Below are positions 10,821 through 14,620 of a DNA stretch of 64,000 nucleotides, one piece after another. Both the position numbers and the translations under genes were made by a program. Source of the DNA: Curtobacterium sp. MR_MD2014 (GTDB lineage Bacteria; Actinomycetota; Actinomycetes; Actinomycetales; Microbacteriaceae); assembly GCF_000772085.1 (NCBI RefSeq), contig NZ_CP009755.1, positions 1,550,001-1,614,000 of the forward strand, written 5' to 3'. The stretch's first letter is position 1. Every line of letters starts with the position of its first letter. Under the pieces are notes generated by a model. It was given only the letters and a program-made list of their open reading frames with translations, searched no databases and was not told the DNA's origin.

Positions 10821-12113
<1,293 letters not shown>

Positions 12114-12117
12114 GCCG

Positions 12118-13377
12118 ATGCGCTTCCTCATCCCGATCCTGGTCGGGCGGGTCCTCCGCGCCCTCGCACGTGCGCGGGGCGGCGGGTCCGCCTACCCGGG
12201 CTACATCGTCCTCAAGCTGGTGCCGGACTTCCTCCAGCACGTGACGAAGCAGTTCCCGAACGGCGTCGTCTTCGTGCTCGGCTCCAACGGCAAGTCGACG
12301 ACGACGCACATGATCTCGGACATCGTCCGGGCACACGGCCTCCGCGTCTTCACGAACCCGTCCGGTGCGAACCTGCCGCAGGGCATCGCCTCGGCGCTGT
12401 TGTCCGAGGTGTCGCTGACCGGCAGGCTCAAGGCGGACATCGGCATCCTCGAGGTGGACGAGGCCTTCGCGGTCGAGCTCGCCGGCATCCTGTCCCCGTC
12501 GACGGTGACGATGCTCAACGTGCAGGTCGACCAGCTCTACCGGTTCTTCGAGACCGAGCGCGTCGCGACGATGATGCTCGACACGGCGGCGTTGTCCACG
12601 GGGAACGTCATCACGAACCGGGACGACCAGTTCCTCGACGCGTACGCGGGCCGCTCGGGCCAGCGCGTGCTCCGCTTCGGCGCGAGCGCCGAGGTCGTCG
12701 CTGCGGCCCCGAACGGGCTGCAGAACGCCGACGACTTCGACCGGACCGCCGGCGAGCCGAACCCTGCCGAGTCCGAGGTCGTCGCCAACACCGGCGACGG
12801 AGCGACGATCCGGTTCGACGGCACCGACATCCCCGTCCGGCTGCCGGCACGGGGCCTGCACTACGCGGTGGACGCGGCGGCCGCGACCGCGACCGCGAGC
12901 GCCGCACTGGGTGCGCAGTTCCGGGCCGACGCCGTCACGAGGGCCTTCGGCACGATGAAGCCCGCGTACGGGCGAGGCGAACGGCTGCCGATCGCTGGCG
13001 AGTCCGCCGAGTTCACGATGTTCAAGAACGCGGCGAGCCTGCAGCTCAACCTCGACGCCCTGCCGGACCGCCCGGAGCAGGTCCTCATGGCGATCGACGA
13101 GGGCACCCCGGACATCTCCTGGATCTACGACATCGACTTCTCGAAGCTCGACCACGTGGACGTCGTGTCCGGGGACAAGGCGTGGCAGATCGCCATCGCG
13201 CTCGAGCACGCCGGTGTCCGCATCGGTCGTGTCGAGCCCGACGTCGAGGCTGCCATCCGGCACATGGAGCAGCTCGGCTCGACGACGTCGGGGACGAAGA
13301 ACTTCATCGTCAACTACGAGATCATGATGATCGCCCGCAAGGCCCTCGGCCACGGCGACATGGAGAAGACCGCATGA
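12118..13377 (+). CDS. murT: MurT-like Mur ligase family protein
   Basis: Family role: MurT activates the alpha-carboxyl of D-Glu in the lipid II stem peptide with ATP, and the partner GatD supplies ammonia to make D-isoglutamine. The 419 residues show a P-loop GSNGKSTT (55-62), the Mur central domain, and the C-terminal DUF1727 domain with the conserved Asp332 in PDISW. Unlike Staphylococcus or Streptococcus MurT it contains no cysteine, so the Cys4 zinc ribbon is absent. It overlaps gatD by 4 bases (ATGA) and follows sigA by 4 bases. In Microbacteriaceae the D-Glu alpha-carboxyl carries the cross-bridge amino acid, so the true acceptor may not be ammonia. The family call is firm, the reaction open. 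Confidence 0.88.
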   Translation: MRFLIPILVGRVLRALARARGGGSAYPGYIVLKLVPDFLQHVTKQFPNGVVFVLGSNGKSTTTHMISDIVRAHGLRVFTNPSGANLPQGIASALLSEVSLTGRLKADIGILEVDEAFAVELAGILSPSTVTMLNVQVDQLYRFFETERVATMMLDTAALSTGNVITNRDDQFLDAYAGRSGQRVLRFGASAEVVAAAPNGLQNADDFDRTAGEPNPAESEVVANTGDGATIRFDGTDIPVRLPARGLHYAVDAAAATATASAALGAQFRADAVTRAFGTMKPAYGRGERLPIAGESAEFTMFKNAASLQLNLDALPDRPEQVLMAIDEGTPDISWIYDIDFSKLDHVDVVSGDKAWQIAIALEHAGVRIGRVEPDVEAAIRHMEQLGSTTSGTKNFIVNYEIMMIARKALGHGDMEKTA

Positions 13378-14147
13378 CGGCCGACCGGCTGACCATCCTG
13401 CACGTCTACCCGCGTCAGATGGGGGTCTCGGGCGACCGCGGCAACGTCGTGGCCCTCACCCGCCGTGCCGAGGCCGCCGGCATCGCCACGGAGGTCGTCA
13501 CGTACGCGCCGGGCGACCAGCTCCCTGCTGCGGCCGACGTCGTCGTCGTGGGCAACGGGCCGCTCAGCGCCATGCGCTCGCTCGGGGCCGACGTCACGCG
13601 TGTCGGGGCGTCCCTCCGCGAGTTCGCCGCTGCCGGCGTGCCCGTCGTGGCCGTCGGCGGGGGCTTCGACCTCGCGACCAACGAGGTCGTCCCCACCGAG
13701 GGATCACCCGTCGCGGGCTTCGGCGTGTTCGACGCGCGGGCCGTCCGCGGTGCCGAGCGTCGGGTGAACTACTTCGTGCTCGACACGCGGTACCCCCTGC
13801 TGCCCGGCGCACCGAAGCGTCTCGCCGGCTTCGAGGACCACGCGACCCGGATCGAACTGGCTCCGGGCGTCGAGCCCTTCGCCGACGTCGTGTCCGGTGG
13901 CGGCAACCAGGCCGGGTCCGCCGTCGAGGGGGCGATCACGGGTTCGTCCTTCGGCACGCACACCCAGGGGCCGATCCTGCCGCTCAACCCGCAGCTGACC
14001 GATGCGGTGCTCGCTGCGGCGACCAAGCGCCTCGGGCGCGAGTACGCGCCGGACCCGGAGCGGACGGCGACCGTCGACCGGTACGCGCGCGAAGCGCGCG
14101 CGACCGTCGACCGCTACGTCGACAAGGCCTTCAAGCGGATCGCCTAG
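13374..14147 (+). CDS. gatD: GatD-like protein lacking glutaminase residues
   Basis: A 257-residue class I glutamine amidotransferase-like protein, partner of MurT. It keeps the GatD layout: LTILHVYPRQMGVSGDRGN at the start, a DVVVVGNGPLS strand, the FGVFDARAV segment and GTHTQGPILPLNP near residue 200. The nucleophile elbow, TICGGYQ in S. aureus GatD, is here VAVGGGF, so the catalytic Cys is Gly95 (GGC, 13656-13658). The catalytic His of TYLHGP is Gln198. The protein has no cysteine at all, so it cannot act as a Cys glutaminase. It is co-translated with murT. It may be a structural subunit of a ligase using another amine. The rest of the fold is intact, which argues against simple decay. Confidence 0.85.
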   Translation: MTADRLTILHVYPRQMGVSGDRGNVVALTRRAEAAGIATEVVTYAPGDQLPAAADVVVVGNGPLSAMRSLGADVTRVGASLREFAAAGVPVVAVGGGFDLATNEVVPTEGSPVAGFGVFDARAVRGAERRVNYFVLDTRYPLLPGAPKRLAGFEDHATRIELAPGVEPFADVVSGGGNQAGSAVEGAITGSSFGTHTQGPILPLNPQLTDAVLAAATKRLGREYAPDPERTATVDRYAREARATVDRYVDKAFKRIA

Positions 14148-14230: not shown

Positions 14231-14455
14231 CTACTTCGACTCGTGGAGTCGGCTGCTCTCGTCGTGCCACTCGAGCGCGGTGGCTGCGAGCTTCTCCTTG
14301 AACTCGGCGCCGTGGTGGGCGCAGAAGTAGAGCTCGCCGCTGGCCATGGTGGCGCGGATGTACGCCTGCGCTCCGCAGCTGTCGCAGCGGTCAGCGGCGG
14401 TGAGCTGGTGGCTGCTGGCTTCGTCGATGGAGAGGTCCTGCACGGTCTGGGTCAT
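14231..14455 (-). CDS. Small Cys/His-rich protein (DUF7455-like)
   Basis: A 74-residue protein common in high-GC actinobacteria, beginning MTQTVQDLS. It has DRCDSCGAQAYIR followed by ELYFCAHHGAEF, so two CxxC-like and CxHH groups could bind one zinc ion. Many homologues have the same DRCDxCGAQA signature. No function is established. It lies between the murT-gatD terminator and the parE promoter and is transcribed toward gatD. Confidence 0.8.
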   Translation of the reverse strand: MTQTVQDLSIDEASSHQLTAADRCDSCGAQAYIRATMASGELYFCAHHGAEFKEKLAATALEWHDESSRLHESK

Positions 14456-14620
14456 TGCTGTGCTCCTCACGGATCGCAGGTGGTGCGGGTGGACCACCAT
14501 TTGAACACGTGGTGGCTGGGAGCCGTGCATCCCGGACCGCCTGTTTCGCTGAGCGCGGAGCGGTTGTCCCCAGTCCGAGCCGCGCCGCTGTCCGGCGGTC
14601 TGGCTGTCGGTGCCCCTCGG

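Follow-up and report, generated by a model that had tools for sequence, protein, structure and literature searches.

The MurT/GatD complex normally adds ammonia to a building block of the bacterial cell wall. It has been described as the lipid II isoglutaminyl synthase, with structures of the Staphylococcus aureus (6gs2, 6h5e), Streptococcus pneumoniae (6fqb) and Streptococcus pyogenes (9sq9) enzymes. In the S. pneumoniae complex, a tyrosine of GatD closes the ammonia passage, an arginine lies beside the gate in MurT, and activity requires Asn85 of MurT (PMC6085368), while Asp349 of S. aureus MurT has been proposed to complete the glutaminase triad (PMC6113224). The C94G variant of S. aureus GatD loses the use of glutamine and keeps an NH3-dependent amidation of lipid II at pH 8.5, for which GatD is still required (Munch et al., PMC3266927). 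Replacement of Asn267 by tyrosine in S. aureus MurT results in a dead enzyme.

Group B peptidoglycan is found in the Microbacteriaceae, with bridges of D-Orn in Curtobacterium, a soil and plant bacterium, and of Gly in Microbacterium, and in lineages elsewhere such as Erysipelothrix and Eubacterium. In Clavibacter, a D-DAB bridge is carried on D-Glu (PMC9603630), and type B walls are reported for Leucobacter (PMC4804768; PMC4511665) and for Rhodoluna, a small-genome member of the Microbacteriaceae (PMC4156110). The enzyme that places the first bridge residue on the α-carboxyl of D-Glu in group B walls was not found in the open-licence literature searched, and among the matches listed there no description was found of a GatD lacking cysteine or of a group B bridge ligase.

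A MurT/GatD pair behind sigA in Curtobacterium

The window, a stretch of 64,000 nucleotides from Curtobacterium sp. MR_MD2014, contains a run of three forward-strand genes, sigA-murT*-gatD*. The first is the open reading frame of the housekeeping sigma factor (10821-12113, +), the C-terminal part of which is 89-95% identical in 30 Microbacteriaceae genomes. The murT* gene (12118-13377, +; 419 residues) starts 5 bases behind sigA and overlaps gatD* (13374-14147, +; 257 residues) by 4 bases. MurT* contains the Mur_ligase_M and MurT_C domains (PF08245 and PF08353) and has the MurT of 6fqb as its best PDB match, and GatD* is a GATase_3 protein with the class I glutaminase fold that lacks the catalytic Cys and His. 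In adjacency and domain content the pair thus corresponds to a MurT/GatD amidotransferase; against the NCBIfam equivalogs of the latter, it scores 66-89 bits where the cut-offs are 400-800, with 89.1 of 800 bits for MurT* and 66.4 of 400 and 77.8 of 450 bits for GatD*. Between gatD* and parE lies another coding stretch (14231-14600, -), which ends in FCAHHGAEFKEKLAATALEWHDESSRLHESK.

The one-contig genome of 3.44 Mb has a single MurT_C match and no second MurT, and its three GATase_3 matches are gatD* and two others that we take from their signatures to be PurQ and PdxT, so the search for a second intact MurT-GatD pair that had been proposed in an earlier note on this DNA found none. Six Mur-ligase genes are present, assigned by place and sequence as MurE, MurF, MurD and MurC in the dcw region (MurC by position only), FolC and MurT*, and by this assignment MurT* is the sole Mur ligase of the genome left without a role.

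Residues lost and retained in GatD* and MurT*

When aligned to the S. aureus and streptococcal GatDs, GatD* has Gly95 (VAVGGGFD; 13656-13658, +) in the position of the nucleophile Cys and Gln198 (THTQGP; 13965-13967, +) in that of the catalytic His, and thereby lacks both glutaminase residues of the amidotransferase. Residue comparison places Ser19 (13428-13430, +) where canonical GatDs have the channel-plug Tyr (Tyr30 in S. pneumoniae), and in MurT* the arginine beside the ammonia gate (Arg135 in S. pneumoniae), characteristic of canonical MurTs, is replaced by Val137 (12526-12528, +). The predicted fold of GatD* is confident and GatD-like. Among the Curtobacterium loci, dN/dS is 0.12-0.18 for murT*, 0.13-0.23 for gatD* and 0.15 for sigA, and both genes of the pair are under purifying selection; with such a ratio and a confident fold, the possibility that gatD* is a decaying gene was rejected. 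The Cys to Gly change is identical to that in the S. aureus C94G mutant, in which the ligase half and the need for GatD survive, but what is a laboratory mutation there is here the natural state of a family, accompanied by further changes and maintained by selection.

In contrast to GatD*, MurT* retains the residues that contact the phosphates of ATP and the acceptor carboxylate. The P-loop GSNGKSTTT (residues 55-63, including Lys59; 12280-12306, +) is evident from sequence and conservation, Asn85 (12370-12372, +) corresponds to the S. pneumoniae residue of the same number, and Glu112, Asp114 and Glu115 (12451-12462, +) are the acids that serve Mg and the acceptor carboxylate (PMC6085368). Together with Arg286, Asn304 and Asp332, the residues Lys59, Asn85, Glu112, Asp114 and Glu115 are conserved in at least 95% of derived and canonical MurTs alike, and at the level of residues MurT* has the P-loop Lys, acceptor acids and hinge Arg of the amino-acid-adding Mur ligases. 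Other positions separate the two kinds. Of 75 derived MurTs, 92-100% have Gln88, Val149, His248, Asp252, Ser307, Asn311 and Lys354, none of which is the majority residue in 37 canonical ones; from this comparison 2 rows of the derived and 14 of the canonical kind had been dropped, along with 22 that were named or near-duplicates. Two of these residues belong to a loop, Ser307-Leu-Gln309-Leu-Asn311 (13036-13050, +), that is conserved in the derived kind and has Gly at position 307 in canonical MurTs, and MurT* also differs from the latter in having three fewer residues before Asp332.

The adenine pocket is altered as well. Tyr249 and Asp252 (12862-12873, +) replace two asparagines that, by counting along the alignment, are Asn264 and Asn267 of S. 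aureus MurT, and the derived MurTs have Tyr at 249 in 91% and Asp at 252 in 97% of cases. Counted in the same manner, the S. aureus Asn267 that does not tolerate tyrosine corresponds to Asp252, and with the pocket changed in this way the use of ATP by MurT* is putative and a different nucleotide may serve instead.

Asp332 (13111-13113, +) aligns with Asp349 of S. aureus MurT. The earlier note had reported this residue and the P-loop as intact, neither protein as having a cysteine, the Gly and Gln replacements in GatD and the 4-base overlap behind sigA, all of which alignment, residue reading (no cysteine in either GatD* or MurT*) and coordinates bear out. It had also called Asp332 catalytic; its counterpart is the proposed triad residue of the glutaminase (PMC6113224), and the survival of Asp332 without the Cys and His therefore needs another reason. 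The missing zinc ribbon of MurT*, which the earlier note had pointed out, is nothing special on wider comparison, as the two CxxC motifs are present in 1 of 98 derived MurTs, 2 of 12 canonical ones of the Microbacteriaceae and 4 of 39 canonical ones outside the family; with most of the actinobacterial MurTs read being without the ribbon, its loss was rejected as a mark of conversion.

Distribution of the cysteine-less GatD

The loss of the nucleophile is a trait of the family. All 91 sigA-linked Microbacteriaceae GatDs that were read lack the Cys, which is more than chance, and have in its position Gly (71), Ala (11), Ser (3), His (2), Thr (1) or Asn (1), the remaining two of the 91, which run off their loci, having been read separately. 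The plug Tyr is absent from the same 91 and present in all 51 Cys-bearing GatDs. The Cys and His are kept in each of the 12 Microbacteriaceae GatDs read that lie away from sigA, and canonical GatDs are found in Lysinibacter and Canibacter; in two draft genomes a derived pair occurs beside a canonical one. The 98 loci of the derived kind in the family include two repeats (L142 of L008 and L145 of L013).

Outside the family, Cys and His are kept in 39 of 42 GatDs read and three pairs are Cys-less, in a sample drawn from 134 genomes with a GatD match (the 23 best and 19 from the rest, low scores preferred). In one outside locus, L241 (549-3213; genome G306), MurT and a Cys-less GatD share a single open frame, and in L243 and L244 (G319 and G381) a Cys-less GatD stands beside a zinc-ribbon MurT, near what by eye resembles a cobU-like gene. 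The sigA-linked MurT/GatD of L227 and L228 (G419 and G421), with the motifs THNAAEVLG and RDSIKRN, are far from the main derived clade and possibly represent a third version.

A CofE-like ligase in place of MurT

MurT, scored on the best four candidates per genome and counted as present at E ≤ 1e-20, was found in 318 of 398 Microbacteriaceae genomes and is absent from 80. A strong match (E < 1e-100) to a CofE-like ligase occurs in 66 of the 80 and in none of the 318, three of which have weak matches, and 14 of the 398 genomes have neither MurT nor a strong CofE; the table behind these counts, of 80 MurT-less genomes and 69 CofE rows, was transcribed by hand. Scoring of all candidates covered 30 genomes, all of them already positive, a repeated search with five candidates found no MurT in 10 of the negative genomes, and the sigA loci of 20 negative genomes have no MurT behind sigA.

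In many MurT-less Microbacterium, a PF01996 (CofE-like) gene takes the place behind sigA and in most cases has a PF14397 ATP-grasp gene close by, and the CofE-like genes that were read are mostly sited there. Among the best 80 of 162 named loci, this place is held by MurT* in 27, by CofE in 53 and by both in none, the presence of one of the two being a matter of design as the loci were retrieved with a query of MurT* and CofE halves, and the ATP-grasp gene is near 50 of the 53 CofE loci. By genome, PF14397 is present in 17 of 19 CofE carriers and weakly in one more, against 1 of 28 with MurT*, 1 of 7 with a canonical MurT and 1 of 6 with neither. Both states occur, as read by eye, within 14 genera, which speaks for repeated exchange. 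Two MurT-less genomes labelled Leucobacter-like, from 78-81% identity to named Leucobacter proteins (g118), have the order sigA, CofE, ATP-grasp, parE, and in a further family genome one gene run (L273, 1107-3902; G440) consists of a CofE-like gene, a Cys-less GatD and a MurT that has the zinc ribbon and the motif EVAEEA. In L269 and L270 (G322 and G411), which have no MurT and no strong CofE, sigA and parE are found without such a ligase between them. The names M. aurantiacum and M. bovistercoris are attached both to MurT* loci (L127, L143) and to CofE-like proteins (P0146, P0148, P0171), pointing to mislabelled strains or to genomes with both.

The CofE-like ligase shares its PF01996 domain with the F420-0:γ-glutamyl ligase CofE. 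It scores 25.6 bits against the F420 CofE equivalog, the cut-off of which is 180.65, and CofD is present in 12 of 19 carriers and missing in 7, on which grounds a part in F420 synthesis was rejected. No solved structure was found for this CofE-like family at E 0.01. The cassette type does not mark Lys versus Orn walls in Microbacterium either, since CofE occurs alike in M. gubbeenense, which has Lys, and in M. radiodurans and M. galbinum, which have D-Orn.

AsnB-CofE fusions outside the family

Among 272 genomes from the same order but not from the Microbacteriaceae, 27 also have a CofE-like match. MurT, which 92 of the 272 have, is missing from all 27 (Fisher 1.5e-5, uncorrected for relatedness), and with this exclusion the two ligases look interchangeable. 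All 27 (loci L262-L265 and L275-L297, families f12, f17 and f6) were read: in 26 the match lies inside a long frame with an AsnB-like part, weak in four, and in one in a shorter frame; in three that were examined, Pfam identifies an Asn-synthetase together with a glutaminase domain. The known wall amidotransferases AsnB/LtsA resemble them in this respect, AsnB being an enzyme that amidates meso-DAP (PMC8554201); in the fusions the AsnB-like part is joined to a CofE-like domain.

The N-terminal glutaminase Cys (MCGI) is kept in 17 of the 27, namely 9 of 17 in f12, 5 of 7 in f17 and 3 of 3 in f6. In the other ten it is not seen: five have Ser or similar (MSGI and others), four are degenerate and in one the region is uncovered, so that the idea of a live glutaminase in all fusions was rejected. 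As 17 fusions keep the Cys and 10 do not, loss of the glutaminase is not tied to group B. AsnB-CofE is a possible undescribed enzyme of D-Glu modification whose own glutaminase would have been lost more than once, and two unrelated ligases thus look, from their sequences, to have lost their glutaminases repeatedly, throughout the Microbacteriaceae and, where the fusion is concerned, in some members of other families as well.

Discussion

MurT*-GatD* differs from the described lipid II isoglutaminyl synthases by the absence of the catalytic Cys and His, the plug Tyr, the gate Arg and the zinc ribbon. A further parallel is the MurT-like protein of pseudomurein archaea (PMC11915815), which is related to MurT and likewise lacks an active GatD beside it, although there GatD is absent and here a dead one is retained. 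The reading that we favour, and consider evenly balanced, is that MurT*-GatD* derives from a lipid II D-Glu amidotransferase and may now be the first-residue ligase of group B cross-bridges. MurT* would activate the α-carboxyl of D-Glu as an acyl phosphate, which an amino acid rather than ammonia would attack to give the first cross-bridge residue, predicted to be D-Orn in Curtobacterium, D-DAB in Clavibacter and Gly in Microbacterium. GatD*, presumably unable to split glutamine, would stay as the scaffold that MurT requires, and in most MurT-less relatives the free-standing CofE-like ligase, usually with the ATP-grasp enzyme, would do the same job. The substrate, amine and product are those that we infer from the lost, retained and newly conserved residues, the purifying selection, the linkage to sigA and the mutual exclusion of the two systems.

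An amino acid is pointed to as the nucleophile by the loss of the glutaminase in two unrelated ligases, and is made more likely by the absence of the plug and gate in MurT*-GatD* and of an ammonia source in both systems. The behaviour of the S. aureus C94G variant, with a live MurT that needs GatD, is what a scaffold GatD would predict. The Clavibacter GatD is Cys-less, and with D-DAB on D-Glu in the same wall this favours a first-residue ligase.

The extent of the correspondence with wall type is limited. The GatDs read from Leucobacter (P0210 and P0243) have intact Cys and His, so the clean boundary between group A and group B along which the earlier note had expected the two residues to disappear was rejected, and the derived pair is not present in all group B walls, CofE being found instead in 66 of 398 genomes and neither in 14. 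The canonical pair of Leucobacter may amidate unbridged stems, or the bridge may be made otherwise; in the Leucobacter-like genome G406, no MurT, GatD or CofE was found within 1.5 kb behind sigA. The conversion to a first-bridge-residue ligase that the earlier note had suggested is consequently upheld in part, by the lack of a second pair, the retained ligase residues and the fit with Clavibacter, and is weakened by Leucobacter, by the CofE genomes and by the three Cys-less pairs among 42 outside the family.

The pair might instead form an amide or peptide bond elsewhere than in the cross-bridge, adding a side substituent to D-Glu or acting on a non-wall substrate, which we regard as somewhat unlikely. 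The Leucobacter pair would suit such a function, as would the glutaminase-dead AsnB-CofE fusions of other families, the altered adenine pocket, the 14 family genomes that manage without either system, and the glycine that some group A walls, such as that of Micrococcus luteus, carry on the α-carboxyl of D-Glu. However, MurT* is the only Mur ligase without an assigned role and its ancestor acts on the same carboxyl, at which the type B walls of the family require a ligase by their established structure. It is improbable that MurT*-GatD* still amidates D-Glu with free cellular ammonia in place of glutamine: the residues of MurT chemistry are unchanged and the C94G complex does use NH3 on lipid II at pH 8.5, but at pH 7.5 the S. 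aureus enzyme used neither ammonia nor NH4Cl (PMC3266927); moreover, neither the plug Tyr nor the gate Arg has been retained, and the α-carboxyl bears the bridge in the group B wall of Clavibacter (PMC9603630). A glutamine-dependent MurT* served by the glutaminase of another protein appears highly improbable. Free glutaminases are encoded in the genome, yet those read as PurQ and PdxT presumably belong to other enzymes, GatD* folds like GatD and would fill the docking face, and the ammonia path has lost its gate and plug residues.

Beyond the first-residue ligase of the Microbacteriaceae, a wider proposal is tentative: in the Actinobacteria, enzymes that amidate D-Glu may repeatedly have been turned into amino-acid ligases by killing the glutaminase, starting from two unrelated enzymes, MurT-GatD and a CofE-like ligase (fused to AsnB in related families, with the Cys lost in some), the two alternating behind sigA in the Microbacteriaceae and making the first bond of group B bridges. 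The intact AsnB-CofE would then be another enzyme that amidates D-Glu, the second and as yet undescribed. Such a history would describe a general route from amidotransferase to peptide ligase, in which the glutaminase is killed and kept as a scaffold. Such genes may be misleadingly named in databases, for instance as "GatD" or "coenzyme F420-0:L-glutamate ligase". For the family, MurT*-GatD* and the CofE-like ligase would be two named candidate genes for the first step of the group B bridge, and if they are interchangeable, Microbacterium strains of the MurT* type and of the CofE type would be predicted to share one wall.
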